A stretch of DNA of 64,000 bases, taken from the NCBI GenBank assembly GCA_963576785.1, contig OY756139.1, positions 310,001-374,000 of the forward strand, in the 5' to 3' direction. The stretch is from Chlorophyllum brunneum (taxonomy: Eukaryota > Basidiomycota > Agaricomycetes > Agaricales > Agaricaceae). Of the stretch, positions 30,011 through 59,325 are shown piece by piece (positions within the stretch are counted from its first letter, which is position 1; each line of letters opens with the position of its first letter). The notes under the pieces are model-generated. The model saw nothing but the letters and a program-made list of their open reading frames with translations. It searched no databases and was not told the DNA's origin. The translations under genes and the position numbers were made by a program.

Positions 30011-30037
30011 GGAAAGAGGAACACCGCAGACTAAAAT

Positions 30038-31906: not shown

Positions 31907-31949
31907 GCTATGGTACTTCATGGGGTCATGAAAGTAAAAAGGGAGGTAT

Positions 31950-35340: not shown

Positions 35341-35749
35341 TAGCAATTCAAATAATCAAAATGGATTAAATCCTCCCCCTTCTGGAGACAGATTTGTTCC
35401 AAAACCATCCAATCTGAGTATGCCACATACTGGACCACCACTGCCACCTCCTTGTCCACAAACTCCTACTCCTAGTCCCAGAGAGTGGACTCCATCACCT
35501 CTGCCTTCTTCCTCTTCTAAAGGATCTTCTCTCAGATTATCCTACAAGGATCTGATACTACCTTCCTCTCCACCTATGCTGTCTTGGCCTCCAGGAGGAG
35601 TTAAGGTTGAAGATGACGTTGAGAAGGCTGCACCTGTGCCTAATCCACATGCTAACAACTGGGCTCCTATGCCCATTCTGGAAGAGATCTTCATTCCACA
35701 TCCAGACATCAAAGCACTGAGAAAACTCTGTGATCAAACCACCCTTCAG
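35327..35749 (+). pseudogene. CopC pol linker before RT, cut by GypA-M
   Basis: Pro/Ser-rich linker (HTGPPLPPPCPQTPTPSPRE) leading to NWAPMPILEEIFIPHPDIKA, then LCDQTTLQ, where GypA-M interrupts it. The target duplication TTCAG is at 35745..35749. Its partner lies at 51269..51273 as CTGAA, at the far end of the inverted block. Confidence 0.75.
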
Positions 35750-36054
35750 TGTTACAATCTTAGTCTAAGACTCAGGTTGCAAGTCTTTGGATAAAGACTT
35801 AAGAAGTAGAGAGAAGAGTAAGGGATGATACAATTGGTAAAGTGTAAGGAATACATCAAGTATTACTACACTTTATATACTAGTGGTGAGTGCTAATAAT
35901 AAAGGAACAGAGTAAAGGAGTCATAGGGATGAGTAGAACAAGTCAGTAGGAGTACAGCCATAAGGGATGAAACAAGGGGTAAAACGGATACACTGGAATG
36001 CTGAGTATAACAACTGCATAATAGGAATGTACTATCTATCTATAGTTCATAACA
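35750..36054 (-). repeat. GypA-M 3' LTR
   Basis: 305 bp. In sense orientation it carries TATTATTAGCACT, CTTCTTAAGTC and GAGTCTTAGAC. These are shared with the GypA-P 5' LTR (51274), not with its own 5' LTR (49715). The polypurine tract (minus) is seen as CCTCCCTTTTTAC at 36059..36071. Confidence 0.93.
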
Positions 36055-36169
36055 ATACCTCCCTTTTTACATTTATGATCCCATGAAATATTGTGATCTA
36101 TTTGTCATCTTATTCTTTGTGTAAGGCATTGATAAGCTGATATTTGGTGGGGCCAATCATTGGAGTTCC

Positions 36170-37063
36170 TGACTTGTCTTGACACCCAATCCAGAAGGGG
36201 GCATGGTCCTGTTCTCCTCTAAAGGAGGCTACAGTGCATTCTCAGAATATAGCAGTGTCATTTGTTTTGGCAGCGACGAGGTTGTGTACTATCTCTTCCC
36301 AGTAGTTTTCTTCAAATTGTCCTCCATCCTTGAGTGTGAGCTAAGATGGCAGTGGGTTAAATATTGTTGGTTTGGATGGTGGGTCCATGTTGGGTAGTTG
36401 TATGAGGAGGTGATCTACTTTGTCTCACATATCTGGTTCCATTAGATAGTCTGGGACTGATTTGTTGATTCCCTCCATCTCTTTATCTAACCATTCCTGT
36501 TCATCATCTTTGTGGTAGGATGGTTTATCAGATAAGATAGTGGGAATGTATGAGTCAAGGTCCATTAACCTTTGAGCAAGTCTATAAGTGGGGTTATCAC
36601 TAGAGTTGGTAAGGTGATTGAGTCTTTTGCCTGTCATAATTAGGGCACTTTGGATGCATTTCTTTGTGTCTGAGTGTACCAATATGTTAAGATTGGTGGC
36701 TGCTTTATCCAATAACTCCTTCATGAGTTTGTGTTTTCCAGTTGACATAGCAGCTGGGAGGGCTCTGGTGGTGGTGATGAGTAAGATATGGCTCAGGGCT
36801 TTGACTTGGATTTGAAGGTTGTTGATGGCATGGGCAATGTATGTGAGTCCTTTGGTTGTGGCAGTATAGTGTTTGATCTGGTCTTCGGTAGACTGGGCAT
36901 CAAGGAGGTTGTTAAGCTCTTGTTTGAACTCTGTGTCATTGGCTGGGAAGGGGGTGGATTTGCATTTGGTATGCATGGTGTGTTGTGGAGGTAGTTGGCA
37001 AAGTCTAGAGTGCAGTGTATACAGTGTAAAGTGCATTGGATGTAGTGATCCCTTGTAATACAA
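36170..37063 (-). pseudogene. GypA-M ORF3 (env position, unknown)
   Basis: Aligns with ORF3 of GypA-P: FPANDTEFKQELNNLLDAQS, YTATTKGLTYIAHAINNLQI, MTGKRLNHLTNSS and DDEQEWLDKEMEGINKSVPD. It is open from 37063 to a TGA-type stop at 36425, with recognisable continuation beyond (GGQFEENYWEE on the minus strand near 36320). No membrane segment or signal peptide is visible. Function unknown. Confidence 0.7.
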
Positions 37064-37132
37064 GGCTTGTTGTTCATAATTGTCACTTTTTACTCCCCCC
37101 TTTTTATAGGTGTTGTCCTCAAAATCCTGTCT

Positions 37133-38420
37133 AAAAATTCTTGTACTGCCTCCTTAGCATTTTCCAGTTGACTCATCCTCCCATATGTCTTCTTCGGAGG
37201 TATTGTTATGGATTTAGCTACTAAGGACAATTGAAGAGGATGCGACCTCTAGGGTATGGCCTTAATACCTATCTCAGCCAAGTAACCAGATAAGCAAACA
37301 TTATCAAACTGTCGTTACTTAACCAAGAAATGGGAATCCCATTTATCTTGTAGCTCTGAGTGATGAGGGTGAGTAGAGAATAAGCAGTTTAGCAATCTTC
37401 TATTGATTGATAGCAACTGTCAAAGGAAACTCTTCTTGGGTGATCAAGAAGGCTATCCCGGTAGAAGATCAAAGCTTAAGCTTTGACTTCCTAATACAGT
37501 GGGCTATTTATACTAACTACTTCTTTTCTATAAATACTATAGAGTATAGATAATGAGACTGAAACACATTTCACAATGTGAAACTGATAGATATGAAACT
37601 TTCAAGGTGAAACACTACTAAAGATAAATGTGAAACTGATAAAGATGAAACAGCTAAGCATAGAACAAAGTGAAACTGATGACAGTGAAATGGATGAGTG
37701 CTTACTCATTCTCAGAGATCTCAAATGACGATGATGGAGATTCATTGGAACAGCTACAGTCACAAGACACATAGGACAAAGTGGTAGAAGATGATGATGA
37801 CAATGGTGGTGATGGAAGAACTGCATCCATAGGATGGTCAGAGTCAGATGATAGGGATAACGTAGATGCGATTGGTTCTTTGGAGAGATAGGACTCAGGT
37901 GACTTGACAAAGGCTTGAGTAGATCACAATAGCAGATGAGGAGAATTGTCGCTGTTGCTACTGGGTACAGCAGGTTTGTTGTCTGGTAATAAGTCTTTGG
38001 GTCGCATTTCTATGCAATAGATTCCATCAGCGATTTGTTGGTGAATGAGCACTTCGAGCACTAGACCACAAGTGTACATGTAGGGGTAGATGTACTGCAT
38101 AGTTTCTTTGGTGGTTGGTTGTGCTTTCCAACCGTTGTTCCAGGTGCCATAGAGGTTGTTCTCGATGGTACATAAGTAGAGTCCATCAGTATCACATATG
38201 TGTAAGTATGGTGCATATTTCCAGGCTAGTCAGAGTAGAGAGTCAATAACAGTATCATTGGATTGTAGTGGCAGGACAAGTGGTATTGCTTCTGGAAACT
38301 TGTCATAACCTCTGACATAGGTTCAAGGTTCAGACATAACAGGTATAACCTTTCCAGTGTACTAGGAATTGATTTCACAATCCTCTCGTGCAGTGTCCTC
38401 GGATCTCTTCTACTTCATAT
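37133..38420 (-). pseudogene. GypA-M chromodomain, split by LTR D
   Basis: The first half lies at 38420..38347 on the minus strand (NNEEYEVEEIRGHC-like, then NQFLVHWKGYT). The second half lies at 37198..37133 (SEEDIWEDESTGKC-like, matching SKEDTWENESELGNAKEA of GypA-P). A chromodomain at the pol C-terminus marks this family as a chromovirus. It is interrupted exactly between KGYT and SKED. Confidence 0.8.
37204..38341 (-). repeat. Solo LTR 'D' with target duplication
   Basis: A 1138-bp insertion with TGTTATG...CATAACA ends and perfect 5-bp duplications GGTAT at 37199..37203 and 38342..38346, the format of an LTR element. It has no relation to the GypA, CopB or CopC LTRs. On the minus strand a cluster of seven TGAAAC/GTTTCA motifs (37560..37690) lies just upstream of TATTTATAG and TATAAATAG (about 37535 and 37505), which suggests minus orientation. 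A minus frame of 102 residues at 37602..37910 is low-complexity and probably not a gene. Confidence 0.75.
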
Positions 38421-40260
38421 TATTCTTCATCATTGATAATCTCGGGCATTGGTGGTGGTGGAGTGTGCTGGGTGTCAAACTCAGGTTTTTGATAGGGGAA
38501 GAGGAGTCTGCTGAACACATTATGTATTACCCATATTTCAGGTAATTCCAGTTGGTAACTTGTTTCACCTATTTTTGTTTTTATCCGGAATGGTCCATAG
38601 CATCTGTGATCTAACTTTTTGGTTGGTCTCATTGTCCTAATATTGCTTGCCTCAAGCCATACTTGTTTTCCTGGAATGTATTCATGTTCTGGTTTGGTAC
38701 TGTTATATTTCTCCATTTGCATCTGCCTATGTTGTAGCATTTTGATTACTTCTTGTCACATGTTTTGTAATTCCTGTATTCATTCCATGATTGCAGGTGC
38801 TTTGGTAACCTTTGTTATATCTCCTTTCCAGGGGTATCATCCATAAACTATTTTGAACAGTGAATATCCAGTGGCAGTGTGGATTTTGTCATTGTATTGG
38901 AATTCCACTATGGCTAACCATTTTTTCCAGTTGTTCTGCATGTGGTTTATTACATTTCTGAGGTATGTCTCAACCTCCTGGTTGATGCACTCTGTTTGAC
39001 CATTGGTTTGTGGGTGGTATGCCATGGATAAGTTTCTCTGGGTTCCTGTTGCTCGGCATAGTTCTGCCATGAATTTGGATGCCAATTGTGGGCCTTTGTT
39101 GCTGATAATTCTGAGGGGGATTCCATGTGTTCTCCATATATCATCTCGGTAGATATCTCCTAGCTCCTTGGATGTTAAGGTGGTGTTGACTGCATGCAAA
39201 CTGATCATTTTGCTGAAATGATCAACTATGACAAGTGTTGCATCATATCCTTCTGATTCTGGTAGTAGTCCTATCATGTTGATTAATATTTCCTCCCAAG
39301 GTTCTGCTGGAGTTGGTAGTGGATAGAGATGTGTTGTCAGTCTTGTTCGGATTATTTTGTTTCATTGGCATGCTTCACACTCTCTATTATTTGACATCAT
39401 TGCACATCTGAGGCCACCAATAACTTTGTTTAAGGAGTTCGATCATTCAGTGTTGTCCTGGATGTCCTACATCTGTTTTGTCATGGTGTTGTCAAAGTAT
39501 TTCTTGTCATATTTGGCTGTTGGGCAGGACATATATTCTTCCTTCAAATATCAGTACTCTATCTGTTTCCCATATCTCCTCTGGTCATTTCTCCTTTTCT
39601 TTTAGCCACTGTGTTTCTCTTTTTGTCTCCTTTCATAGTTGGTGTTTTAGATCTTCTTCTCCTGAGATCTCCCAGATTTGTCGGATCACAGTAGTTGGGT
39701 TGTTGTTGAATAAGTGGTCAGGTAGTAAGGTGATGTCAGTGTTATCTTGGGTGGTATCGGTTTTTGTTAGTCTCAATAAGATGTTGGCTTTTGTGTTGGT
39801 CTTCCCAGGGATGTGTTTCAGTGTGTAATGGTATTTTTGTAGCTCTATCTGCCACCTTGCTTATTGTCCTGTGAGTTGTTGTAGTTTTCAGAAATATTCT
39901 AGGTTCTTGTGATCCGTCCATATTTTGAATGGCTCATCTGTGTCAAGTAAGTATTGTCTCCAGGTCTTAATTGCTTCTCGGATAGCTAGTAATTCTTTGT
40001 CATAGATCTGATAGTTTTGTTCTGCAGGTGTTATCGTTCTTGAGTGGAATGCAATTGGGTGCTAGTGTTCTTCCTGTTTCTGCAACAGTACCACTCCTAC
40101 TCCATATCCTGATGCATCCACTTCTACTCTGTATTGTCCCTTATCTTGTGGCATTGCTAGTACTGACTCACTTGTGATCTTTTCCTTGATTCTTTCAAAG
40201 GCCTATTGCTGATGTTCTGTTCATACCCATTGTATGTCCTTTTTCTTCAACTTGTGTAGT
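38420..40260 (-). pseudogene. GypA-M pol, RNase H to integrase tail
   Basis: Reading leftward from the LINE: RNase H (YRVEVDASGYGVGVVLLQ-like near 40130, [19 protein letters not shown] near 39980), then the HHCC zinc finger and integrase core. IGLLPESEGYDATLVIVDHF is at 39277, IISNKGPQLASKFMAELCRA at 39110 (second catalytic Asp changed to Asn), and QTECINQEVETYLRNV contains the catalytic Glu. The tail has EYIPGKQVWLEASNIRT and YQLELPEIWVIHNVF. Many stops. Confidence 0.82.
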
Positions 40261-40357
40261 AGAGCTGCTATGTTCATCCCTTCTTTGACTCGTACCACCA
40301 CCATCGATTTCTCAAAAGTCGATTACATGGTATTAGTCTATAGCACTAGGATACACA

Positions 40358-42556
40358 ATGCCTGCATTACGTTCAAATCTCTCTCCTAGAGAGCCCATGC
40401 CCGATGGCAACGGGAAAGTCTTCGGGAACACAACACGTGTTCCACCTTTGTCCATCTACGCGGCTTCTCCAGCTTTGCCACCCCCAAGCGTCCTGTTCCC
40501 TAGGATGCCTATTATGACTGGGCCATTCATACCTGTGAACCAAGCCTATAGCGACACCATCCCACCATCGGTCCAAAGCAGTAGGCCGACTACACCTACC
40601 TCAATCACTTCGAACCCTCTCCATGGCGAAGGAGACCGAACAACCCACCGTGTCTCCAAATGGATGAGAGTCAGCGGAGATCAGTATTACTTAGGAGAAA
40701 GTTGGGCTGAGTAGGTCGAAGAAGAGCTCACACCCAAAAAGAAGGTCCAAGTCGAAGAGGACAAGGACAAATCCCACGAGGACCAGAGAGAAGGTCCTGA
40801 AGAATTTTACGAAGATGCTGTGAAAGAGGTTGGCAAGATCTCAGAGTGGGTGAAAGCCTGCAGCACTTTCAACATGAGTGGTGACGAAGGTTTGGCGTTT
40901 GGCCAAGCATTCTCGGAACTGACGGAGACCTTGAGTAAGAAGGGATGGCTTAAGATAATAGTCGATGAAAAGAAGAACAATCTCCAAGATTGGTTGGGGA
41001 AAAATTTTGGTAAGTACACTGTCCACGCTGAGGATTCCCCTCAGCTGGATGTTGCACACCCTTCCTGCGTGGCCTCCAAAGGCCCCACGCACAAACCTGA
41101 TGATGTCCGTATGGAGGTCATCGAACACATTGTCACTCCGGGTATCTCCATTGGCAATGATGTCACTCGTTCGGGTATCTCCGATGATGACATTCAAATG
41201 ATCTCTGAGGCGGAGTTCAAGACCGTGGCTCATGGAAAGAAGAAGCGAGCCAGGAAACCAAGAAATACGGCTCCAGGAATCCCCAGGCTGAAAAAGACGA
41301 ACCCCGTTGCACCCACCATGGCCACCCCCGCCACTGCGCCTGCCAAGGCCATCAAAACTCCAACTCCCGCACCCAACGGTAAGGGAACCAACCCCCAGGA
41401 AGGGGCGAAATCTTCCTATGCCTCGATGGCAGCCAAGAAGACCCCTTCTAACGCCCCCCCCACCACCAATGCTAGGGATCCTCTCAAACTCTTAGAGTTT
41501 GCGAGTAAATTCCCCGAGCTCTCCAATGAGAAGATTGTGGCAATGTACAATGCTGCCTACTCTCCTTCCGCCCCCCCGGTGAATAAGAAACCAGCCAACA
41601 AAGCTGGGACTATTCGCTCCACCCTTAATGGTCCCTTGCGAAAACAAGTGATCATTCCCCTTCTCACGGGTCCTGCCGTCACCAACTTTGGGGCTATCAT
41701 AGACTCTCTTAATGCGTGTCTGATTGCGGAAAAGTCCAAAATGAGGGTTATTGCCACCTCACAGGGTAAGCTGGGCCTTATGGTCCACATCTTGGAGGTA
41801 TTAACCCCTACTGAGCTCGACATTGTCAAAGCGTGGCTCAAGGAAAAATTCGGAGGGATCACAACGGGTGATGCCAGCCTCCCTAAGTCCAAGTCGTTCG
41901 TGAAAGTCACGGACATAAATTACATCACACCCCGAGGACAGATCCTCACTAAGGCCGATGTGGTTTCTAGCGTCTGGAGTTCGATCCACTCTGACGCCAT
42001 CCAATTCGCGTCGCAACCACGTGTACGACGTAACTCAAAACATTTGGACACCTGTACAGTGTGGTTCGAAATCTGGGACTCGAAAGCGGGGACCAATGTC
42101 GCGAAAATCGAGGACAAGTTCCTTAACATCTATGGAGGGCTCTTCCACATTAGGAGGGCCACAGCCAACCCGGGAGTCCTGTTCTGCTCCAAATGTTGCA
42201 GATGGGGCCACCCCCTTGTCTGCTGCCGAGCAAGACTCTTCACATGTGCACACTGCAAAGGGCCGCATGCCACCGCTAACCACCGATCGTTCGCCCATTG
42301 TTGCAAGGGCAATGATAAAGCCACTCCACCTATCGCGGCTACCCCCCTCGGAGAACCATGCCCCCACAAGGCGACGTGCTCCAACTGTGGCAAGGACCAC
42401 CTCGCTACTGACCAAAAATGTCAGTTTTGGAGAAAACAATTTGACCATGACTGGCATGCAAACAAGGCACTCGAACTTCGAGCGAACAAAGAAGTTCTGT
42501 CACCTGCCTCCTCACCATCCTGGGCTAGTCGAAGCCAGACAACCCCCCCTCAATGA
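40358..42556 (+). pseudogene. LINE ORF1, RNA-binding protein
   Basis: One frame from MPALRSNLSPREPMPDG to SRSQTTPPQ (about 732 codons) with a single TAG at 40712..40714. The N-terminus is Pro/Ser-rich. The middle (around 41225..41430) is Lys/Ala/Pro-rich. The C-terminus has Cys-rich knuckles: CSKCCRWGHPLVCC, CAHCKGPHATANH and CSNCGKDHLATDQKC. Such proteins coat the LINE RNA. The TGA stop overlaps the ORF2 start as ATGA. Confidence 0.85.
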
Positions 42557-45500
42557 ATAATGCCCACGACGAGCAAGACAGGCCTCCTTGTTCACTCTTG
42601 AACGAGTTAAAGGTCTGCTCTCACAATGTAGGAAGATCGCAGGGAGTGATGGAGACAGTCCTCGCACGCAGAGGTGATGTCGACCTCCTCCTCATACAAG
42701 AACCCCCTTGGAGATATCTCCGAGACATCCCCTCATCTGTCTCTAATGACGGATCGCCCCTCGTAGGAGGCCCAGTTCACCTGGACTGGACGCTCCTTTC
42801 TTATCCAATTATCGCCAAAGAAGTCCTTCAAGTGGGTTGCCGATGATACCCTCAACGCACGGTCAACATGGAACACCGTACCATGCCGCAAGTCCTCGCT
42901 TTTGCTCATAAAAGGCTGAAACGACTCCAACCCTCCATCCGAAGAGACGTAATCGACCATTGAGACCTCCTGTGTATATCTCTATATGCGGGAGGAGAAG
43001 AACTACTGCTGTTGAATGTTTATGACAACAGCCATAACACTGCGCTCCACTTCCTCGAGGAGTGACTCTTCGACCTCCCGCTCTTTCTTCTTTTGGGAGG
43101 AGACATTAACATCAGATTGGAGTTCTGGGACCCTTCAACGGATCAACATCCGGCGAGTGCAGACCGACTCCTTATGGTCACCAAAGCCCTCAACCTTGTG
43201 AGGACTACTCCGTTTGAGGCCAAGCCGACTTGCTATGCCTCGGACCCCAACTTACCAGACACGGTCATCGACCTGATCTTTGTCTTGGGAATGCTTCCAC
43301 ACATTCCCTCCCATGCTATCCAGGACGGCGATCAGTACAACTCAGACCATGCCCCCTACTAATCAGGTTACCTATTCTGCAGATAGATGTCGTCGTCGAA
43401 AGATTGACCATCCCCAAAGAATCGGAAGAGGAAACCAGATTCCTGACGGACATCATAGAAGGAATCAAGAACCAGAACTGGCCGATGAATGACGCGGATG
43501 AGCTGGAGAGAGCTGTTGCCAAATTGGGAGTTTTATTTGACAGATCGTGGACTCGGAATGCGAAGACGACCAAGATCACCACTAGATCCAAGACCTGGTG
43601 GAACAAGGAGTGCTCGACCGCACTTGCTATGCACCACGCAGACCGCAAGAACAAGCACAAGTAGAACGCTTTTCGCAAGACCACAAGGAAAACGAAAAGA
43701 GCCTACTTCGACAAGATAATACAAGAAATCTCCATCGACCGAAAACGCCCATGGGATCTCATGCCATGGGTTAAAGACTGTACACTTCTGGCCACGGAAG
43801 CCATGCGTCACAACAGTCGGCCTTGTCTCACACTAGACAATCTGTAGATGGCTCTCGACTCCCATTACAACACTGCCCGCGATAGACCAACGAACACGGC
43901 AGTACTAGACGAGCTTTCTCCCCCGAATGGAATGGAGAATAGGACTTGGGTAGACTTCTCTCTCTTAGAGATGATGGAATCACTCAAGGATACCTCGAAT
44001 TCTTCCTCCCCCCGTCCCGACCATATTTCCTGGTCCCATCTAAAACAGATCGTCGCCGATGAAACTTGCACCGGCTTATTCCTCAAAATCGGTAGTGCAT
44101 GTCTGAACATTGGACACTGGCCTACCCACTTCAAAAAGTCAACGTCGGTGATTATTCCGAAACCCAATAAACCTGACTACTCCACTCCGAAGGCGTTCCG
44201 ACCGATCATTCTCCTTAATACGTTTGGTAAGCTCATCGAGAAAATGCTCGCCAAGCGACTCCAATTTGAGGCTGTTAAATTCAAGGTCCTCCATCCGCAC
44301 CAATTGGGAGCGATCTGCCAGAGGTCCACTGAGGACGCGGGTCTCTTCCTGACGCACATTATCTGGGGAGCTTGGACAAAGAAAAAGAAGACGTCGGTGC
44401 TTGCATTCGACGTGGCTCAATTCTTCCCCTCCCTCAACCACGATCTCCTTATCAAAATTCTACGACAACAAGGATTTCCCCCCCAAGTCGCAGCATTCTT
44501 CAACAACTACCTAAAAGAACGCCGCACTACCTACCGGTGGAACAATGAAACTTCCCCGGAATATGACGCAGCAGTAGGAGTAGGTCAGGGCTCAGCCCTC
44601 AGCCCCATTCTCTCCGCTTTATTCCTCGCCCCTCTTTTACACATCTTTGACACCCACATGGAGGAACACCACGACAAGTGGGACTTTGATGTCCTGTCAT
44701 TCATCGATGACGGCACTTTAATCGTGCAATCCCCGTCTCTGGAGAAGAACGTGGAAATCCTGCAACACATGTACCACGAAATGGAGTGGCTCATGAACGA
44801 ATTCGGCCTGGAAATTGAACACAGCAAGTCCGAAATCTTTCACTTCACATGTGCAAGACAGGACTCGAATCCCTCAATTGATTTGGGATCCCCGCTGTTC
44901 ACGGGTCGCAACTCCCTCAAACCGAAGACCCATTGGCGGTACCTCGGTTTTTACTTCGATCAGATGCTGACCTTCAAGGAACACGTTCAATTCTATTCCG
45001 CCAAGGCAATATCCACCATCAAGGTGATGAAAATGCTGGGAAACTCCGTCAGGGGTCTATCCCCCAGCAACAAGAGACTACTCTACTGTTCGTGTGTCAT
45101 ACCAGTTGTGATGTACAGATTCCAACTATAGTTTCACGATCGATCCCGTACCAAGGGAACTTGTGAGATCCTTAACAAAATGCAACGAAGGGTGGCACTC
45201 TGGATTACTGGGGCCTTCCATACTTCTCCCACCGGTGGTGTAGAGTCCCTCGCAGGGCTCATGCCCATCAAACTATACCTCCGAAAGTTGGCCGAACGAC
45301 AATCGTCGAGGCTTCATACATTGGATGATGAACACACATTGGCAAGATTGACGAAAGAGTATCATTCTTCCCCCCACTGACTTCACATCAAGAACTTCAT
45401 GGAGGTTCAGAAGAAGAAGACACTTGGAGCTGTGATGGACTTTTTGTGCCCTACCCCCGAGACTCGGTATATAGAACATTTCAATTCCGTTTCTAAATCT

Positions 45501-46602
45501 CTCTGGCCCGGATGTAGGTTACTTGACCGTTTCTCTGCTAATATATCTTTTATAGGATTCAACCAGGACAACCCTCACCTCTCAAAGATGCTTTGGGACA
45601 ATGTAACGACGAACGCGATGACAGATGCTAAATCCATCACGATCGGTATGGACAGCTCGGTCCACCCCAATCCCAATCCACTTGCCAGCCAGTTCACGGC
45701 GGCAGCTACCATTTGACATCTTGACGGCGGGAGCTCTATTATGAAGAGGCTCAGAGGAACCACGTCGACAGACACAGAACTGGTAGCGCAGTACTTAGGT
45801 ATTACCAAGGTGCTCGCTACTGACAACTACGACCAGGTTGAACACATTCATGTGTTTACCGATTCCATTGTGGCCTCCCGGCTCCTACTCAACTGTTTGC
45901 CGCACTCCTGCCAGCAACAGTCTATCCTCACGTCGAAGGCGCTCCTGGCTTGGTTCAGCAAATCAGACCAACATCGCCTTTCATTTTATCACACGCCGTC
46001 GAAATGCAAGTATGGGATACAAAAAGCTATGCATGACTGGATCCAAACGGTTGCCTGGCCTAACCGGGGTCAAAATCACCGAGTACCGAACTCGCTCGAC
46101 TACCTTCGCAAAAAGTCTGCCAAACGTGCCATTCACACATGGCAGGCCATGTTCGGGTTCAAGACTTACAGCGGTAGCTCCTTCCTCCACCTCCCGGTGC
46201 GAGCGAATGGGGCCTCCACATTACCATTGCACATCAAGTCCAGTCCATGGATACGAGAATGCGGATACCAGCCCCAGCTCTTCGCAAGAGCCTGTCGCGC
46301 CATACTATGCCACGCCCCGATTGGAGAGTATCAACTATGATTCTTTCCTAACGAGGATCTTTCGTGCCACCACTGCAACAGTCAAATGGTGCAAACGAGG
46401 TCACACATCCTGTATCATTGCAACAACTTTGATCACCACTTTGGCGCCGACACAATCAAGACATTTGTCAACTTCTTGCACCGCAACCCCTCTGCGTTCA
46501 GCTTCCCCCCCAGAACCTGATCGCCCTCGTTTCTGTGCCGGTTCTATCCCACTGTTACATCGTCATCAAGTCCAAAGGAGGTTTGGGTCTGCGCCTGTGT
46601 AG
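42553..46602 (+). pseudogene. LINE ORF2, endonuclease-RT-RNase H
   Basis: The ATG at 42553 overlaps the ORF1 stop. APE-type endonuclease: KVCSHNVGRSQGV, DLLLIQEPPWRY, and YNSDHAPY at 43340. A frameshift follows near 43362. RT (43848..45131): FRPIILLNTFGKLIEKML, LAFDVAQFFPSLNH, GQGSALSPILSALFLAPLL and the catalytic FIDDGTL at 44700. RNase H: GMDSSVHPNPN, STDTELVAQYLGI, HVFTDSIVASRLL. The C-terminal zinc motif CHHCNSQMVQTRSHILYHC is near 46370. Stops at 45129 (TAG), 45378, 45714 and 46338, and a one-base insertion near 46511, all interrupt it. Confidence 0.88.
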
Positions 46603-47042
46603 GATCCTTTTCTTTTATCTTTTTTCTTTTGCTCTCACGGTTATGGATTTCCAATTCATTTCTCTATCTCCCCTTCCCTCGCTCGTCTACTATTTTATGT
46701 AGCTTTCATTCAAAATCCATCTCTCCCGTGGTGCCTGGGTAAATACCAGCCCACACGCTATGTACCATTTGATGTTCCCCCTTGTGTTTGCGAGTAGATA
46801 GTTTCTTTTCTATTGATTTCTCTCTCTCACTCTCTCTCTTTCCGAATTCCCTTCTTTCCTCTTTCCGCTGAACATCGTAGGTACCAAACATCTCTCTAGT
46901 GTACGCGCTAGATGTCAACAAGTCTTGTGGGGTTAGTTTACTTGTAGTTTACTTTCCCTTCTCCGAACATTCTGTACATTCTGCCTTTGTATGTATGTAC
47001 ACGCGGACTGCGTTCGAGCACTGCTATATAAATTGTTGATTT

Positions 47043-47065
47043 AAAAAAAAAAAAAAAAAAAAAAA
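47043..47065 (+). other. LINE poly-A tail
   Basis: Twenty-three A residues end the LINE, immediately followed by the second copy of the target duplication. This is the product expected of target-primed reverse transcription. Confidence 0.95.
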
Positions 47066-47094
47066 GAGCTGCTATGTTGCTAAAGTCATGTATA

Positions 47095-48107
47095 AATTGT
47101 CAGTAGAAGTTTGCGAATCCTAGGAATTTCTTGACGTCTTTTAAGGATTTGGGTGTTGGCCACTCTTTTACTGCTTTCACCTTCTCCTCCATTTTAATGC
47201 TGCTCTGTCCAACCACAAATCCTAATATAGGTATTTCTTTCATATTGAATAAGCACTTTGATCTTTTGAAGTACAGTTGATGTTTTGCTACAATGTCAAG
47301 AAATCGTTTCATCCTGTCTTCAAGTTCCTGTTGTGTGGTTCCAGGGATAACAAAGTCATCCATGTAGTTGACAACTGCTTCTTCATGTAGTATCTCTCAA
47401 AAGACAGTGTTCATCATCCTTTGGAATGTTGCTGGCAAGTTACTCATTCCAAAAAACATTACTGTTGGTTCAAATAGTTCATTGTTTGTTATGAATGCTA
47501 CTTTCCATTCATTGCCTTCCCTTATCCTGATGTTGTTGTATCCCCAGATGATGTCGGGTTTGTTAAAGACTTTCATATTCTTGAGCTGGTTGATAACTTC
47601 ACTTATGAGTGGAAGTGGTGTCTTGTCTTTGATCATGTGTTTGTTTAGCTTCTTATAGTCTTGTACCAGTCATTTAGTTCCATCTTTCTTGGGTATAAAG
47701 AAGCATGGGGTGGCGTAGGAGGATTGTGATGGTTGAATTCATCCTAAGGCGATATTCTTGTTGAGGAATTTCTGCAGTTCTTGTTTCTCCATTAATGTCA
47801 TTGGGTAGACTTTGGACTGTAGTACTGGTGGTGCATCTTCTGTCAGGTTTATTTCGTGGTCCCATATCATGTGTTCTGGCAGTTTGTCAAAGTTCTTTTT
47901 GTTGAACAGGTGTGTATATTGCTGTAAATATGTCGGTAGGTCTTCTGGGTTTGTTTGATCAGTTTTCTTTTCCTCTATGTGTTCTTTTACCATGCATATC
48001 CTCTTGTTGAACTGTATGTCATTGTGGTGTGTGGTGCAATCCTTTGGACATCTATTGAAGCATATTATGTCGTTTGTCCAATTGATTTCTGGGTTGTGCT
48101 TGACTAG
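47095..48107 (-). pseudogene. GypA-M reverse transcriptase
   Basis: Reading leftward: WTNDIICFN and VYPMTLMEKQELQKFLN (47800), then the RT fingers with TPCFF near 47700, IKDKTPLPLISEVINQL, VFNKPDIIWGYNNIRIREG (LDI changed to PDI), FGMSNLPATFQRMM and MDDFVIPGTT at 47363, the catalytic site. Thumb KFLGFANFY runs into the LINE insertion point. It differs much more from GypA-P than gag and protease do. Confidence 0.85.
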
Positions 48108-48420
48108 CTAGTCATGTCCGAGATATAAATCTGTGCTTTCTAGTTGTGTTACCATTGCTTCAATTTCTTTCATGTGTTTACCATTGCTTAATACCAGTTG
48201 TGCCGTATCTGTTATTTCTCCTTTCTTGTTCTCAGTTCCATCAGCATTGATTACTTGTATTGGGGTTTTGAGGGGTTTGGTTGTGATTTGTTCTTCTTCT
48301 ACCATTTTCTGTGCTATGCATATGTGGGTGCATCCGGAATCCACCAGTGTGGTGATTTGTTTGGGTCCTTTCTTCATTCTGATTGTTGAGTCGAGGAGAA
48401 GTTCACACGTCGAGTTTCAT
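48108..48420 (-). pseudogene. GypA-M protease
   Basis: LVDSGCTHICIAQKMVEEEQ holds the DSG active site. The frame ends in YLGHD-stop-LVKHNPEINW, where the Gypsy consensus is GHDWLxxHNP, so a TGG became TAG. The same stop is in GypA-P. Confidence 0.85.
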
Positions 48421-48493
48421 TTTTGTGGAATCACATATCGTCTATTGTGAAATAAAACAGGAACTCTAGGTTTATTGGCTCGCGGGTTTGTGC

Positions 48494-49621
48494 CTACTTG
48501 GAGCCTTCAACAAAATCCTCTTTTGTTTCTTCTTCTATTTCTTCGGTAACTTCCCTGATGTGTGCTTTCTTTGGTGCTTTACAATTCTTTGAGATGTGGC
48601 CTTGTTTGCCACAGTTATAGCACATTATCTTGGTGTATGCTATCTTTGTCTTCTTGTGGCAATATTTGGCAATATGCTCATAGAGGTTATAGTTAAAACA
48701 CCTCAGTTTGCTGTTCTGATTAGTGTCTGCCCTCTGTGTACCAATTTCCATTGGTTGTCCTCCACCTCCATAGGTGACTCCTGTGCTTGTTCTGACATCT
48801 CCTCGTGTGATGTCTGTTGTTTCGTACCCCTGTCCTACTGCGAGGATAGTGTTTCTCCATTTGCTATATGTATCTGGGATTGAGGCTGCCGGATAGCCTA
48901 CAATGGTTTGGATAATGTCTGCTCTGGTGTGTTATTTGAGAAGGAATATGGCATGTGCATTGTCTGTTCCTGCTTGGGTCTTCAATGCTTCAAACTCTAT
49001 TAAGAAGTCTGTGGTGTTCCTTTTTCCCTGTTTGAACAACTTGATTTTCCCTTCTGCTATTGTTTTCCTATTCCCCAAGAAGAAGGCTACCATCTCCTTT
49101 GCGAAGTCATCAAATGCCAGTGTTTTTTTGTCTTGAATTATTTGTAATTTGGCGTTGGCATAGGGACCTGCAAGTCCCCCTTTCATTCGAGCTAATATTC
49201 CAATTATCTTTTGCTTGTTATCATTGATTTTGTTGAAGAGTGTCCATAAGGACATTGCTCTCCACCAATCGTCAAACTTGGTTCTATTTCCATTGAAGTA
49301 TCCTGGTTCTGGGGCTAGGTTCTTTGGGAAGTTGATTTCATTGGCCATCTCTGATTCTGTCTCTGGTTTGCTATGTTTGTTTTTGTAGGTTTCGGCAACT
49401 TCTATGTCGGATGTGGTCTCAGCAACTTCTGTGTTGAATAGGGTCTCAAAAAGAGCTGTGTCTTCTTCTATACTATGGTCAGATTTCTGCTATTTAAGGC
49501 CTGCAGGGATTTCTGGTTCTGTTTGTCGTTTGGATCTGGTGGTTACTGGTAATTCCTGGATATCTGTTGGTCTCGGAGCTCTTGTTCTTCTCAGTGTTCT
49601 CAATGAGCTACTGCTGCTCAT
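48494..49621 (-). pseudogene. GypA-M gag
   Basis: Starts MSSSSSLRTLRRTRAPRPTD at 49621; TAG at GLK-stop-QKSD (TGG in copy 1). Capsid MANEINFPKNLAPEPGYFNG is at 49348..48932, then a TAA after HAIFLLK, then zinc knuckles. The first, CFNYNLYEHIAKYC, has lost its second Cys; the second, CYNCGKQGHISKNC, is intact. From 49411 leftward it is nearly identical to GypA-P. Confidence 0.87.
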
Positions 49622-49701
49622 ATACTGTCGTCCTGGTTGGAGGGTATTATTCCAAGCCTAGCTATGAATAGTGGTACCTTTCTTGCAAGGTGAGTCGAAT
49701 G

Positions 49702-49713
49702 ACACTTTACCAA
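49702..49713 (-). promoter_or_regulatory. GypA-M self-priming primer binding site
   Basis: ACACTTTACCAA on the plus strand, i.e. TTGGTAAAGTGT in element sense, one base inside the 5' LTR edge. It is complementary to the predicted mRNA 5' end (49798..49809 within the LTR). Confidence 0.8.
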
Positions 49714-49714
49714 A

Positions 49715-50019
49715 TGTTACGACCTTAGTCTAGGACTCAGGTTGCAAGTCTTTGGATAAAGACAAGAAAGTAGAGAAGAGAATAAGGGATGATACCATTG
49801 GTAAAGTGTAAGGAATACATCAAGTATTACTACACTTTATATACTAGTGGTATGAACTAAGAATAAAGGAATAGGGTAAAGGAGTTATAGAGATGAATAA
49901 GATGAGTCAGAAGAGGTACAGCCATATGGGATGAAACATATAGGTGAAACAGATACATAGGAATGATAAATATGCTGGGTGCATGATAGGAATGTACTGT
50001 CTATCTATAGTTCATAACA
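49715..50019 (-). repeat. GypA-M 5' LTR
   Basis: 305 bp. In sense orientation it shares CACCCAGCATATTTATC and TGACTCATCTTATT with the 3' LTR of GypA-P (57300), not with the GypA-M 3' LTR. It is followed on the right by TAAGG (50020..50024). Confidence 0.93.
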
Positions 50020-51273
50020 TAAGGTACATCAGGGACCCAACTAGTTGTTGGTACTTTTGGTGGAACTCAGGGTCAATGGTACCCTTGTAGGGCAGAAAGG
50101 CACATCCTGCTGGAAGAGGTGTTTGAGTCAGCCTTGTGGTGACACCAACTTTAGCAAGGACCTTATTGAGATATGAAATCTAATCAACATAGATCTGCTT
50201 GTTCTTCTGGTCCTATGAGATAGTCATGCCAAGAAACTCAGTTGTTTCTCCAAGGTTACGACATTCCCATTGTTCCATGAAGTTTTTCTTCATTTGGTAA
50301 TAGAAGGGGCACTTCTTGCCCATGAAGACAACATTGTCAACATAGACAAGGGCAATCATAATCAAGCCAGTCTTTGGACAGCAATTGTAGTATACTCTAG
50401 CATTGGATAGAGATCACTTGAAGCCCATGGCAAGCAGTGACTTTGTTATCATGTGCCACCAAGCTAAGCTGGCTTGCTTAAGGCCATACAATACTTTTCA
50501 CAACCTCCACACTTTATTACATCCAAGTGTGAATTCTTCCAGTTGTTCCATAAAGATTTCTTCATCTAGATTGCCATATAAATAGGCGGTTTTTATGTCA
50601 ATGCTTTCGATCTCCCAGTCTTTGACTACTGCTAAGGAGAACAGAAGATGAGAAGTTTTGTAGTAGACAACTGGAGAGAAAAGCTCATTGTAGTTGAGAC
50701 CTTCCTTCTGCAAGAAACCTTTCACCACTAGTTGAGCACAGCAACAACCGTCCAATTTAGTGTTGAAGACCCATCTATTTTTAACAATGTTAATACCCTT
50801 GGCAGGGCAGACTACTAACTAGTACATGTTGTGTTTCCTGAGTGCATTGAGCTTCTCAAGGCATGCCTTAAGCCATTTATCATGCTCAGTAGGTGGCAAC
50901 TTGGCAAGGTCCCTAAACTGGACTGGCTGTGGCAACAGGGAAGTCACACTGGCCTTAAAGAGGTAGTAATGGATTAACTCCATACCACCTTCGCAAATCA
51001 ATCAGTGAAGCTCTTTCTCACTTGGCTCAAGCATGGGTGAATCAATGTTAATGTTCTGCTCATGTGCTGGCAGGGGAGGTTGTGGCCTGTCAGGCACATA
51101 CACATTCTCTCCTGGATTGCAATCACCAAGGCCCAGGGGGGCATTAGGTCAGCTAGGGTTCCAGTGTCCTGGTCCAGGCTAACTGAAAGGCTTGTACCTT
51201 TCATAGTCCCTAAGGATGTCCTTCAGGTGTTGGCGGTTGCCTTAGACATTTCCTTCTCTCTGTGGAACCTGAA
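50020..51273 (-). pseudogene. CopC reverse transcriptase, inverted segment
   Basis: Encodes Copia RT on the minus strand although CopC itself runs on the plus strand. Reading leftward: FRDLAKLPPTEHDKWLKACL, VKGFLQKEGLNYNELFSPVV (typical ARLVAKGFxQ...YxETFSPV), WEIESIDIKTAYLYGNLDEE (D in place), a YVDN-type site (ALVYVDNVVFMG near 50350; the family has YVDD) and QLVGSLMYL at the left end. Flanks are TAAGG and CTGAA. In its original orientation GSLMYL joins in frame to MIGLQANITYTV at 57610. Confidence 0.9.
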
Positions 51274-51574
51274 TGTTATGAACTATAGACAGTACATTCC
51301 TATCATGCAGTCATTGTACTCAGCATTCCAATGTATCCATTTCACCCCTTGTTTCATCCCTTATGGCTGTACTCCTACTGACTCGTTCTACTCATCCCTA
51401 TGACTCCTTTACTCTGTTCCTTTATTATTAGCACTTACCACTAGTATATAAAGTGTAGTAATACTTGTTGTATTTCTTACACTTTACCAATTGTATTATC
51501 CCTTACTCTTCTCTCTACTTCTTAAGTCTTTATCCAAAGACTTGCAACCTGAGTCTTAGACTAAGGTTGTAACA
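51274..51574 (+). repeat. GypA-P 5' LTR
   Basis: 301 bp. TATATAAAG starts at 51445. The predicted transcript start ACACTTTACCAA is at 51479..51490, 34 nt downstream. By sequence it is the sister of the LTR at 35750. Confidence 0.93.
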
Positions 51575-51575
51575 T

Positions 51576-51587
51576 TTGGTAAAGTGT
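51576..51587 (+). promoter_or_regulatory. GypA-P self-priming primer binding site
   Basis: TTGGTAAAGTGT, one base after the LTR, is perfectly complementary over 12 nt to ACACTTTACCAA at the predicted mRNA 5' end (51479..51490). In Tf1 of fission yeast the mRNA 5' end folds back on the primer site in this way. I see no match to a tRNA 3' end, though I could not search all tRNAs. Confidence 0.78.
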
Positions 51588-51667
51588 CATTCGACTCACC
51601 TTGCAAGAGAGGTACTACAGTTCGTAGCTAGGCTTGGAATAATAGCCTCCAACCAGGATAACAGTAT

Positions 51668-52858
51668 ATGAGCAACAGTAGCTCATCGAGAACACCAAGA
51701 AGACTAAGAGCTCCAAGACCAACAGACATCCAGGGATCACCAGTAACCACCGGATCCAAATGATGAACAGAGGCAGAAATCCCTGAAGGCCTTAAGTAGC
51801 AGAAATCCAACCACAACATAGATGAAAACATAGCTCTTTTTGAGACCCTATTCAACATAGATGTTGCCGAGACCACATCCAACATAGAAGTTGCCGAAAC
51901 CTACAAAAACAAACATAGCAAACCAGAGACAGAATCAGAGATGGCCAATGAAATCAACTTCCCAAAGAACCTAGCCCCAGAACCAGGATACTTCAATGGA
52001 AATAGAACCAAGTTTGACGATTGGTGGAGAGCAATGTCCTTATGGACACTCTTCAACAAAATCAATGATAACAAGCAAAAGATAATTGGAATATTAGCTC
52101 GAATGAAAGGGGGACTTGCAGGTCCCTATGCCAACGCCAAATTACAAATAATTCAAGACAAAAAAACACTGGCATTTGATGACTTCGCAAAGGAGATGGT
52201 AGCCTTCTTCTTGGGGAATAGGAAAACAATAGCAGAAGGGAAAATCAAGTTGTTCAAACAGGGAAAAAGGAACACCACAGACTTCTTAATAGAGTTTGAA
52301 GCATTGAAGACCCAAGCAGGAACAGACAATGCACATGCCATATTCCTTCTCAAATAACACACCAGAGCAGACATTATCCAAACCATTGTAGGCTATCCGG
52401 CAGCCTCAATCCCAGATACATATAGCAAATGGAGAAACACTATCCTCGCAGTAGGACAGGGGTACGAAACAACAGACATCACACGAGGAGATGTCAGAAC
52501 AAGCACAGGAGTCACCTATGGAGGTGGAGGACAACCAATGGAAATTGGTACACAGAGGGCAGACACTAATCAGAACAGCAAACTGAGGTGTTTTAACTAT
52601 AACCTCTATGAGCATATTGCCAAATATTGCCACAAGAAGACAAAGATAGCATACACCAAGATAATGTGCTATAACTGTGGCAAACAAGGCCACATCTCAA
52701 AGAATTGTAAAGCACCAAAGAAAGCACACATCAGGGAAGTTACCGAAGAAATAGAAGAAGAAACAAAAGAGGATTTTGTTGAAGGCTCCAAGTCGGCACA
52801 AACCCGCGAGCCAATAAACCTAGAGTTCCTGTTTTATTTCACAATAGACGATATGTGA
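51668..52858 (+). pseudogene. GypA-P gag
   Basis: Starts MSNSSSSRTPRRLRAPRPTD and is in one frame to ...FLFYFTIDDM. Early TGA/TAG codons lie near 51760..51800 and a TAA after HAIFLLK (52358). Capsid MANEINFPKNLAPEPGYFNG is at 51941. Zinc knuckles: CFNYNLYEHIAKYC (degenerate) and CYNCGKQGHISKNC (intact) near 52590..52710. An acidic tail (EEIEEETKED) follows. Gag and pol are in different frames. Confidence 0.88.
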
Positions 52859-52872
52859 TTCCACAAAAATGA

Positions 52873-55800
52873 AACTCGACGCGCAAACTTCTCCTCGACT
52901 CAACAATCAGAATGAAGAAAGGACCCAAACAAATCACCACACTGGTGGATTCCGGATGCACCCACATATGCATAGCACAGAAAATGGTAGAAGAAGAACA
53001 AATCACAACCAAACCCCTCAAAACCCCAATACAAGTAATCAATGCTGATGGAACTGAGAACAAGAAAGGAGAAATAACAGATACGGCACAACTGGTATTA
53101 AGCAATGGTAAACACATGAAAGAAATTGAAGCAATGGTAACACAACTAGAAAGCACAGATTTATATCTCGGACATGACTAGCTAGTCAAGCACAACCCAG
53201 AAATCAATTGGACAAACGACATAATATGCTTCAATAGATGTCCAAAGGATTGCACCGCACACCACAATGATATACAGTTCAGCAAAAGAATACGCACGGT
53301 AAAAGAACACATAGAGGAAAAGAAAACCAATCAAACAAACCCAGAAGACCTGCCGACATACCTACAGCAATATACACACCTGTTCAACAAGAAGAACTTT
53401 GACAAACTACCAGAACATACAATATGGGACCACGAAATAAACCTGACAGAAGATGCACCACTGGTATTACAGTCCAAGGTCTATCCAATGACATTAACAG
53501 AGAAACAAGAGCTACAAAAATTCCTCAATGAAAACATCACCTTAGGACAAATTCGACCATCACAATCCCCCTACACCACACCATGCTTCTTCATACCAAA
53601 AAAAGATGGAACCAAACAACTAGTACAAGACTACAAGAAGCTAAATGAATACATGATTAAAGACAAAATGCCACTTCCACTCATAAGCAAAGTTATTGAT
53701 AAACTCAAGAATGTGAAAGTCTTTAACAAACTCGACATCATCTGGGGATACAATAACGTTAGGATAAAAGAAGGTGATGAATGGAAAGCAGCATTTGTAA
53801 TGAACAACAGATTATTTGAACCAATGGTCATGTTTTTTGGAATGAGTAACTCGCCAGCAACATTCCAAAGGATGATGAACACTGTCTTTCGGGAAATGCT
53901 ACATGAAGGAGCAGTCGTCAACTACATGGATGATTTTGTCATACCTGGGACCACACAACAGGAACTTGAAGACAGAACAAAACGATTTCTCGACATTGCA
54001 GCGAAACACCAACTATATTTCAAAAGATTGAAATACATATTTGATGCAAAAGAAATACCTATACTAGGATTTGTGGTTGGACAAGGCAGTGTTAAAATGG
54101 GGGAGGAGAAAGTGAAAGTGGTGAAAGAATGGCCAATACCCAAATCCCTAAAAGATGTTGAAAAATTCCTAGGATTCGCAAACTTCTACCAACAATTCAT
54201 TCACAACTTCAGCAACATAGCAGCCCCATTACACGAGTTGAAGAAAAAAGACATGCAATGGGTATGGAAGGAACAACAGCAACAAGCCTTCGAAAGGATC
54301 AAAGAAAAGATCACAAGTGAACCAGTACTAGCAATGCCACAAGATAAGGATCAATACAGGGTAGAAGTGGATGCATCAGGATATGGAGTAGGAGCAGTAT
54401 TATTGCAAAAACAAGAAGAACACTGGCACCCGATCGCATTCTATTCAAGAATAATGACACCTGCAGAATGAAACTATTAGATCTATGACAAAGAATTACT
54501 AGCTATCCGAGAAGCAATTAAGACCTGGAGACAATACTTACTTGACACAGATGAGCCATTCAAAATATGGATGGATCACAAGAACCTAGAATATTTCCGA
54601 AAACTACAACAACTCACAGAACAATAAGCAAGGTGGCAGATAGAGCTACAAGAATACCATTACACACTGAAACATATCCCTGGGAAGACCAACACAAAAG
54701 CCAACATCTTATTGAGACTAACAAAAACCAATACCACCCGAGATAACACTGACATTACCTTACTACCTGACCACTTATTCAACAACAACCCAACTACCAT
54801 GATCCGACAAATCTGGGAGATCTCAGGAGAAGAAGATCTAAAACACCAACTATGAAAGGAGACAAAAAGGGAAACACAGTGGCTAAAAGAAAAAGAGAAG
54901 CGACCAAACGAGATATGGGAAACAGATGGAGTACTGATGTTCGAAGGAAGAATATATGTCCCACCCAACAACCAAATACAACAAGAAATACTACGACAAC
55001 ACCATGACGAAACTGATGTAGGACATCCAGGACAACATCAAATGATTGAACTCCTTAAACAGAGTTATTGGTGGCCCCAGATGTGCAATGATATCAAACG
55101 ATACATCAGAGGATGTGAAGTATGCCAACGAAATAAAATACTCCGAACAAGACCAACAACACATCTCCATCTGCTACCGACACCAGCGGAACCTTGGGAG
55201 GAGATATCAATTGACATGATAGGATTGCTACCAGAATCAGAAGGATATAATGCAATACTTGTTATAGTCAATTGCTTCAGCAAAATGATCAGATTACGTG
55301 CAGTCAACACCACCTTAACATCCGAGGAGCTAGGAGATATCTATTGAGATGACATATGGAGAACACATGGAATACCCCAAAGAATTATCAGCGACAGAGG
55401 CCCATAATTTGCATCCAAATTCATGGCAGAACTATGCCGAGCAACAGGAACCCAGCAAAACTTATCCATAGCATACTATCCACAAACTGATAGTCAAACA
55501 GAGTGCATCAACCAGGAGGTTGAAACATACCTCAGAAATGTAATAAACCATGCTCAAGACAATTGGAAAAAATGGCTAACCACAGCAGAATTCCAATACA
55601 ATGACAAAATCCACACAGCCACCAGATACTCACCATTCAAAATAGTTTATGGACGACACCCTTGGAAAGGAGATATAACGAGTATTACCAAAGCACCTGC
55701 AATCACGGAACAAATACAGGAGTTACAAGACATGCAACAAGAAGCGACAAAGATGTTACAATACAGTCAGGGACAAATGGAGAAACGTAACAGCACTAAG

Positions 55801-56280
55801 GCGGAACACGAGTACATCCCAGGAGAACAAGTTTGGCTCGAAGCAAGTAATATCAGGACAACAAGACCAACCAAAAAGCTGGATCACAAACGATATGGAC
55901 TATTCAGGATAAAAACAAAAATAGGCAAAACAAGCTACCAATTGGAACTACCTGAAACATGGGCGATACACGATGTGTTTAACAGCAGACTCCTCTCCCC
56001 CTATCGAAAACCCGAATTTGACAGCCAGCACACCCCACTACCACTGATACCCGAGATCATTAACGATGAAGAGCAATATGAGGTAGAAGAAACCCGAGGA
56101 CACCACACAAGAGGACGACGAAATCAATTCCTAGTACACTGGAAAGGGTATACCTCCAAAGAAGACACATGGGAGAATGAGTCAGAGTTAGGAAACGCTA
56201 AGGAGGCAGCTCAAGAATTTTTAGACAAGATTTCAAGGACAAAACCTATAAAAAGGGGGAGTAAAAAGCAACAATTATGA
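52873..56280 (+). pseudogene. GypA-P pol: protease, RT, RNase H, integrase, chromodomain
   Basis: Protease LVDSGCTHICI (52940). RT: LQSKVYPMTLTEKQELQKFL, VFNKLDIIWGYNNVRIKEGD, FGMSNSPATFQRMM, YMDDF (53927). RNase H: YRVEVDASGYGVGAVLLQ. Integrase zinc finger HHDETDVGHPGQHQ...CEVCQRNK (55000..55135), core IDMIGLLPES, IISDRGP-stop-F, TECINQEVE: the D, D and E are all present. Tail EYIPGEQVWLEASNIRT. Chromodomain EEQYEVEETRGHHTRG...FLVHWKGYTSKEDTWENES (56080..56190), a probable chromatin-targeting module. In-frame stops at 53179, ~54470, ~54626, ~54855, 55346 and ~55406. The final TGA overlaps an ATG (ATGA at 56277). Confidence 0.92.
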
Positions 56281-56317
56281 ACAACAAACCTCGTGTTACA
56301 AGAGATCACTACACTCA

Positions 56318-57256
56318 ATGCATCTCACACTGTATCCATTGCATTCTAAACTACACCAATTACCTTCACAACACACCATGCACACTGAACGCAAGCCCAC
56401 CCCTTTCCCAGCCAACGACACAGAATTTGAACAAGAACTCAACAACCTCCTTGATGCCCAGTCCACCGAAGACCAAATTGAACACTATACTGCCACAACC
56501 AAAGGACTCACATACATTGCCCATGCCATCAACAACCTCCAAATCCAAGCCAAAGCCCTGAGCCACATTCTACTCATCACCACTACCAGAGCCCTTCCCG
56601 CTGCCATGTCAACTGGGAAACATGAACTCATGAAGGAGTTATTAGACAAAGCAGCCACTGACCTCAATGTATTAGTGCACTCTGATGCAAAGAAATGCAT
56701 CCAAAGTGCCTTAATCATGACAGGCAAAAGACTCAATCACCTTACCGACTCAAGCAACAATCCCACCTATAGACTTGCATGGAGACTAATGGACCTTGAC
56801 TCATACATCTCCACTACCTTACCCGACAAGCCACCCTACCACAAAGATGATGAACAGGACTGGTTAGACAAAGGAATGGAGGGAATCGACAAATCAGTCC
56901 CAGACCATCTAATGGAACCAGATATGCGAGATAAAGTAGACCATCTCCTTATACAACTGCCTGATATGGACCTGCCACCCAAACCAATGATATTCAACCC
57001 ACCCCCATCTTATCTAACACTCAAAGATGGAGGACAGTTCGAAGAAAACTACTGGGAAGAGATAATACACAACCTCATTGCAGCTGAAACAAATGATACA
57101 GCTATGTTCAAAGGACACACCATAGCCCTCTTCAGAGGAGGCTAAGACCATGTACCCTTCTGGATTGGATGTCGATGCAAATCAGGAACCCCGATGATTG
57201 GGCCTACCAAACGTCAACTTGTCAACGCCTTACACAAAGGACAAGATGACAAGTAG
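56318..57256 (+). pseudogene. GypA-P ORF3 (env position, unknown function)
   Basis: An additional frame of about 312 residues between pol and the 3' LTR, interrupted once by TAA at 57143..57145 (Gln in copy 1). Visible blocks: FPANDTEFEQELNNLLDAQS, YTATTKGLTYIAHAINNLQI, LLDKAATDLNVLVHSDAKKC, DMDLPPKPMIFNPPPSYLTL, EENYWEEIIHNLIAAE and FWIGCRCKSGTPMIGPTK. It is mostly helical and polar in appearance, with no signal peptide or membrane helix, so it is not an obvious envelope protein. It is present in all three GypA copies. An alternative frame from the ATGA at 56277 is only 94 codons long. Confidence 0.75.
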
Positions 57257-57299
57257 ACTATGATATTTCATGGGGTCATAAAAGTAAAAAGGGAGGTAT

Positions 57300-57604
57300 T
57301 GTTATGAACTATAGATAGACAGTACATTCCTATCATGCACCCAGCATATTTATCATTCCTATGTATCCATTTCACCTATGTGTTTCATCCTATATGGCTG
57401 TACCTCTTCTGACTCATCTTATTTATCTCTATGACTCCTTTACTCTGTTCCTTTATTCTTAGTTTGTACCACTAGTATATAAAGTGTAGTAATACTTGAT
57501 GTATTCCTTATACTTTACCAATTGTATCATCCCTTATTCTCTTCTCTACTTTCTTGTCCTTATCCAAAGACTTGCAATCTGAGTCCTAGACTAAGGTCAT
57601 AACA
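57300..57604 (+). repeat. GypA-P 3' LTR
   Basis: 305 bp, preceded by AAAAAGGGAGG (57287..57297). By sequence it is the sister of the LTR at 49715. The right flank CCTTA (57605..57609) matches TAAGG at 50020 in reverse complement. Confidence 0.93.
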
Positions 57605-59318: not shown

Positions 59319-59325
59319 TAGCCTT

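Follow-up and report, generated by a model that had tools for sequence, protein, structure and literature searches.

How did two retrotransposons of one family come to carry each other's long terminal repeats (LTRs) and each other's target duplications? The question is raised by a 64,000-nucleotide stretch of the basidiomycete Chlorophyllum brunneum (contig OY756139.1, positions 310,001 to 374,000; hereafter the window) from a host genome of 38.9 Mb in 14 contigs. Here one Copia element is broken by two Gypsy elements of the same family, M on the minus strand and P on the plus strand. We consider it very likely that the segment between them was inverted by ectopic recombination between these inverted elements, which exchanged through a near-identical tract present in both. 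The parts of the locus, with the LTRs assigned to two insertions, A and B, are as follows.

35350-35749, plus strand: left flank of the Copia element (the part compared), ending with TTCAG at 35745-35749; Pfam SH3_retrovirus lies in the open reading frame (ORF) at 34797-35369
35750-50019, minus strand: Gypsy element M, a chimera with an LTR at each end and a piecewise match to P
35750-36054, minus strand: 3' LTR of M, sister of the 51274 LTR; insertion A
40275-47064, plus strand: insertion nested within M, with a poly-A end and an ORF with RVT_1; outside the flipped segment
48033-49407, minus strand: exchange tract, M copy, near-identical to that of P (4 differences in 1375 bp)
49715-50019, minus strand: 5' LTR of M, sister of the 57300 LTR; insertion B
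50020-51273, minus strand: inverted 1254-bp Copia block with the reverse transcriptase (RT), bounded by TAAGG (50020-50024) and CTGAA (51269-51273)
51274-57604, plus strand: Gypsy element P, a chimera with Tf2-like SH3 and chromodomain
51274-51574, plus strand: 5' LTR of P, sister of the 35750 LTR; insertion A
51882-53256, plus strand: exchange tract, P copy, near-identical to that of M; presumed crossover and conversion tract
57300-57604, plus strand: 3' LTR of P, sister of the 49715 LTR; insertion B
57605-58004, plus strand: right flank of the Copia element (the part compared), starting with CCTTA at 57605-57609

Sister LTRs and Target Duplications Are Swapped between M and P

A preliminary description of this DNA, made from the sequence alone, had proposed that the sister LTRs are swapped, so that the LTR starting at 35750 pairs with that at 51274 and the one at 49715 with that at 57300. 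The alignment of the four LTRs bore this out. The identity of the swapped pairs was 95.3% (35750/51274) and 95.1% (49715/57300), corresponding to 14 differences at 301 sites and 15 at 305, as against 83.9-86.0% in the four cross pairs; the LTRs within each element were 84.9% and 85.7% identical. The swapped pairing was favoured by 30 informative gap-free columns, the within-element pairing by one and the third possible pairing by none. A tree was then built from 32 LTRs, namely the four of the window and 28 from 14 other copies of the family. Both swapped pairs were recovered, with support values of 100/96 for 49715 and 57300 and 84/70 for 35750 and 51274. The within-element grouping (35750 with 49715, 51274 with 57300), named in the preliminary description as the result that would speak against it, was forced in approximately unbiased (AU) tests and rejected (p-AU 0.0007 and 3e-5).

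The target duplications were found to be swapped as well, as had been claimed. M is flanked by TTCAG on the left and TAAGG on the right, and P by CTGAA on the left and CCTTA on the right. After reverse complementing, the two left flanks match each other and so do the two right flanks, with 0 mismatches each, and the element's own flanks differ at three of five bases in both M and P. The frequency of such an arrangement was assessed in a sample of 25 elements with flanks (M, P and 23 others), the genome containing about 1000 first-look candidates of this family. Among the 13 same-contig opposite-strand pairs of the sample, only M and P had exchanged duplications; none of the 12 others did (0/12), these being a small sample of a large family. 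The element's own target duplication was perfect in 14 of the 23 other elements and had one mismatch in three, two mismatches in one and three or more in five. Thus, 17/23 had at most one mismatch and 6/23 did not.

The Copia Block between M and P Is Inverted

According to the preliminary description, the block between M and P encodes the Copia RT on the minus strand and the rest of this element reads on the plus strand. RVT_2 was indeed identified on the minus strand of the block (E 3.3e-22). For the comparison with other Copia copies, the genome was searched with the block and 40 of 280 first-look candidates were scored, the window's own copy included; the flank segments were then located within fetched 4-5 kb loci around the 39 other blocks. 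In all 39, the orientation of the block to its flank or flanks is opposite to that in the window. Since every one of these copies shows the opposite arrangement, it is the block of the window that is the inverted one, and the segment between M and P is inverted relative to the ancestral order. Both flanks were found in 30/39 copies and one flank in 9/39; the left flank was present in 33/39 and the right one in 36/39, always opposite to the block. In a few copies (e.g., L012, L016, L025) the flank and the block are separated by some hundred bases or more. The flank and block alignments overlap by 5 bases at the left junction in, e.g., L002 and L007 and at the right junction in, e.g., L013, L015, L020 and L036, which is expected from the 5-bp target duplications.

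The reading frame points in the same direction. With the two sides translated separately, the minus strand of the block closes with GSLMYL, and the right flank opens with LMIGLQANITY on the plus strand. Whether the first motif continues into MIGLQANITY, as had been proposed, was judged from the other copies, the window sequence being neither flipped nor joined. GSLMYL runs straight into MIG or IIG in 20/39 of them, which upholds the proposal; one copy has another continuation and 18 lack the exact motif.

A Near-Identical Tract inside Both Elements Marks the Exchange

M and P differ at 667/6296 sites, and these differences are distributed very unevenly: 79/596 sites left of 51882, 4/1375 in 51882-53256 and 584/4325 to the right, i.e., an identity of 86.7%, 99.7% and 86.5%, respectively, or a divergence of 13-14% outside the tract and 0.29% inside it. 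The tract in P pairs with 48033-49407 in M; its edges are sharp, the M-P alignment is gap-free throughout and the longest exact run is 912 bp. When the mismatches were permuted 2000 times, the longest stretch with at most four mismatches was at most 207 bp, compared with the 1375 bp observed. A comparison of 14 other copies with each other and with P and M (16 rows, 120 pairs) gave the longest near-identical stretch for M and P, followed by L052/L054 with 1015 bp. One tract difference, at 52794, is private to P; the three at 52882-52885 are variable in the family and may be later changes or unconverted remnants.

We conclude that this 1375-bp tract marks the exchange and that the inverted segment is at least 2474 bp (49408-51881) and at most 5224 bp (48033-53256) long. 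The preliminary description had placed the flip at 50020-51273. The inversion itself stands, whereas its extent has to be revised: because the exchange maps to a tract inside the elements, the flipped segment measures 2.5-5.2 kb and not 1.25 kb, and takes in both 5' LTRs and 5' ends together with the 1254-bp Copia block. As the divergence is 0.29% in the tract and about 5% between sister LTRs, the exchange would be much younger than the insertions, about 1/16 of their age or less if the rates are equal.

M and P Are Reciprocal Chimeras

A crossover inside the elements, as had been suggested, should leave each of them composed of two insertions. For this, the 5' ends (P5, M5) and the 3' ends (P3, M3) of both elements were compared with their best 39 other genomic matches each (best 38 for M3). 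Among these best matches, M5 was linked to P3 within one element 20 times and P5 to M3 eight times, compared with five links for P5 and P3 and seven for M5 and M3, the combinations now found in P and M. When the M3 list is cut at its best 22 matches, a limit noticed post hoc, six of these link to P5 and none to M5.

Six A-like and six B-like copies yielded 172 diagnostic sites as subfamily markers. P carries A8/B0 and M A1/B7 in the 5' LTR; in the exchange tract, both carry A6/B23; and on the other side the affinities are reversed, with P A3/B24 and M A22/B5 in 53257-54500, P A12/B63 and M A61/B14 in 54901-57299, and P A3/B8 and M A11/B0 in the 3' LTR. The switch persists in a stricter set of copies whose own duplication has at most one mismatch (5 A and 4 B copies, 257 sites). 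Among the 14 copies, five have a 5' LTR nearer P with a 3' interior nearer M, eight show the reverse, one (L047) is nearer P in both and none is nearer M in both (Fisher p 0.003, the copies being partly chosen from the linked lists). Thus, both the LTR swap and the reciprocal subfamily switch, the latter with marker copies taken partly from linked lists, indicate that M and P are each chimeric. Since the shared tract is mostly B-type, A was apparently the repaired recipient. At about 54514-54900, the identity of M and P is raised again and both elements are more A-type (P A8/B5, M A11/B2); this patch may represent a second conversion that was smaller or older.

Several observations weigh against this interpretation. 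The exclusive pairing of 35750 with 51274 has modest support (84/70). The markers in 51575-51881 are uninformative (P A4/B2, M A4/B3); as they do not tell M from P, the switch is delimited on its left by the change in identity and by the LTR. Because the A and B copies come from the linked match lists, the marker test is partly circular, and two of the six B copies (L052 and L054) are one insertion duplicated. In the A set, the two LTRs of L053 match each other poorly (86.8%) and both ends of L047 are nearer P; L045 is nearer P in two middle segments. Finally, the excess of B markers in the tract is weaker in the stricter sets: A17/B32 with 257 sites and A3/B6 when no dissent is allowed and 56 sites remain.

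Proposed History and Alternative Explanations

The following course of events very likely accounts for the locus. Two members of one chromodomain Gypsy family, A and B, inserted independently into the Copia element in opposite orientation, 1.25 kb apart, each generating its own 5-bp target duplication, as comparison with the other copies shows. They then diverged, mostly by transitions. Much later, one element, probably A, would have suffered a break, and homologous recombination with the other as template would have ended in a crossover; of this step, the sequence itself shows the tract and the marker switch across it. Through the repair, both elements would have come to hold about 1.4 kb that is mostly B-type. 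A crossover between inverted repeats flips what lies between the exchange points, here the Copia RT block with the 5' LTR and the 5' end of each element. This leaves M and P as reciprocal chimeras whose sister LTRs and target duplications are swapped, with a flipped Copia block between them.

The near-identity of the tract copies would also be expected if they were a standing inverted repeat in which flipping has recurred, with both orientations present in the species. The smaller patch of raised identity at about 54514-54900 would suit such a history, and recurrent flipping has a published precedent in homogenised inverted repeats (PMC9731477). If this were true, conversion and crossover would homogenise the 1.4-kb tract, and M and P would diverge elsewhere. 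Nevertheless, a single exchange suffices for the observations, and we regard repeated flipping as unlikely.

Alternatively, the tract could stem from a non-crossover conversion, with the segment between its two copies turned round by the assembler. A long near-identical inverted repeat is a classical setting for an assembly flip, and it counts against a true inversion that an assembler could misorient sequence across a 1375-bp repeat with an exact run of 912 bp. On the other hand, four differences lie within the tract, and the genome has 14 contigs; those seen are 1.9-4.7 Mb long, and there is no N in the window or in 54 loci. The few, large contigs without N suggest an assembly from long reads. 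Moreover, even an assembly flip requires the recombination tract to exist. In view of this, an artefact seems improbable.

In spite of the fact that near-identity tracts between family copies do occur (the M-P tract, the 3' end of L052/L054), the possibility that M and P were inserted as seen and that later conversion mimics the LTR swap is of negligible probability and was rejected, because LTR conversion moves no target duplications outside the elements and leaves the Copia block flip unexplained, against the orientation in 39/39 other copies. Equally negligible is an inversion in which two breaks were rejoined end to end and M and P did not recombine by homology. Such end joining would also flip the block but would need joins at matching positions without loss, M and P being gap-free through the tract; it was rejected because of the sharp-edged near-identical tract at the switch point, which it leaves unexplained.

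Other Features of the Locus and of the Gypsy Family

The breakpoint copies M and P are homologous and lie on opposite strands. In P, RVT_1, RT_RNaseH_2, SH3_Tf2-1 and Chromo all score above the Pfam cut-off; gag-like matches in P and M and an integrase core match in M are below it. The domains lie in the order gag, RT, RNase H and integrase with SH3/chromodomain, as in Ty3/Gypsy LTR retrotransposons with a chromodomain, and the LTRs have the ends TGTTA..TAACA, i.e., TG..CA, with a 5-bp target duplication.

M is interrupted by two stretches without alignment to P, 37204-38340 and about 40275-47064. The former comprises 1137 bp, and the aligned pieces adjoining it overlap by 6 bases in P; it is probably another small nested insertion. 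The latter is surrounded by a 14-bp direct repeat (40261-40274 and 47065-47078, with the first base shared with the poly-A) and appears to be of the non-LTR type. Two related stretches, 45174-47059 at its end and 59324-61209, are mutually inverted and 93.5% identical. A third, shorter Gypsy element of the M/P family lies at 28974-32242, outside the exchange, with a perfect GCTTC target duplication; it possibly sits in the same Copia element. The observed/expected ratio of CpG is 0.47 in 35750-57604 vs 0.88 in 1-25000, and to the right of the tract, loosely defined CpG-type transitions make up 217 of the 584 differences between M and P.

Elsewhere in the genome, L052 (C5:944771-951047) and L054 (C5:913251-919607) looked like a second exchange, with LTRs unpaired within the elements and 1015 bp of near-identity. 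This candidate was rejected: read by eye, the 10-bp flanks of the two agree on the left and on the right, and the pair is an inverted duplication of one insertion. Neither has its own target duplication; about 1 kb of the 3' end is nearly identical and the rest is mostly 90-98% identical. L022 (C5:2052700-2058000) and L023 (C5:2026900-2032200) share 5186 bp at 100% identity, inverted and about 26 kb apart; either the duplication is very recent or the assembly contains a fold-back artefact here. At C4 ~1868949-1881930, there are two neighbouring inverted elements of the M/P family; the flanks of the first mismatch at four of five bases, and the first ~1137 bp of the second run opposite to the remainder. 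Three same-strand copies at C1 ~3.664-3.707 Mb lie exactly 18281 bp apart with similar but not equal scores, which suggests a tandem triplication.

Comparison with Known Systems

One sequence here is a natural record of an ectopic crossover with its two insertions, target duplications, LTR pairing and tract length, and also yields the probable direction and the relative age of the exchange. It holds a trap as well: dating by the own LTR pairs of M or P would imply a divergence of about 15%, when the true figure is about 5%, and the broken Copia copy could pass for two opposite-strand elements.

Among the titles listed by searches of one literature library, none concerned a Gypsy pair with exchanged duplications; the close match was Galileo in Drosophila buzzatii. 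There, ectopic recombination was inferred for inversion 2z3 from opposite copies, exchanged duplications and chimeric copies (PMC2775673). M and P resemble it in their opposite breakpoint copies, exchanged target duplications, chimerism of both copies and later nested insertions (PMC2775673), and differ from it in being LTR retrotransposons, in the 2.5-5.2 kb inversion lying inside another element and in the visible exchange tract. The flip/flop region of Saccharomyces chromosome XIV, a recurrent inversion across the genus, likewise involves inversion between homogenised inverted repeats, but there 4-kb gene pairs act as the repeats and enclose 24 kb (PMC9731477). Yeast Ty1 rearrangements also arise by recombination between dispersed LTR retrotransposons; unlike M and P, they are experimental rearrangements and not a fossil read from one sequence (PMC3102749, PMC9879454). 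Two further papers provide background only (PMC12368964, PMC7251063). The mechanism is well known, and the M/P pair is an unusually complete and very well preserved fossil of it.

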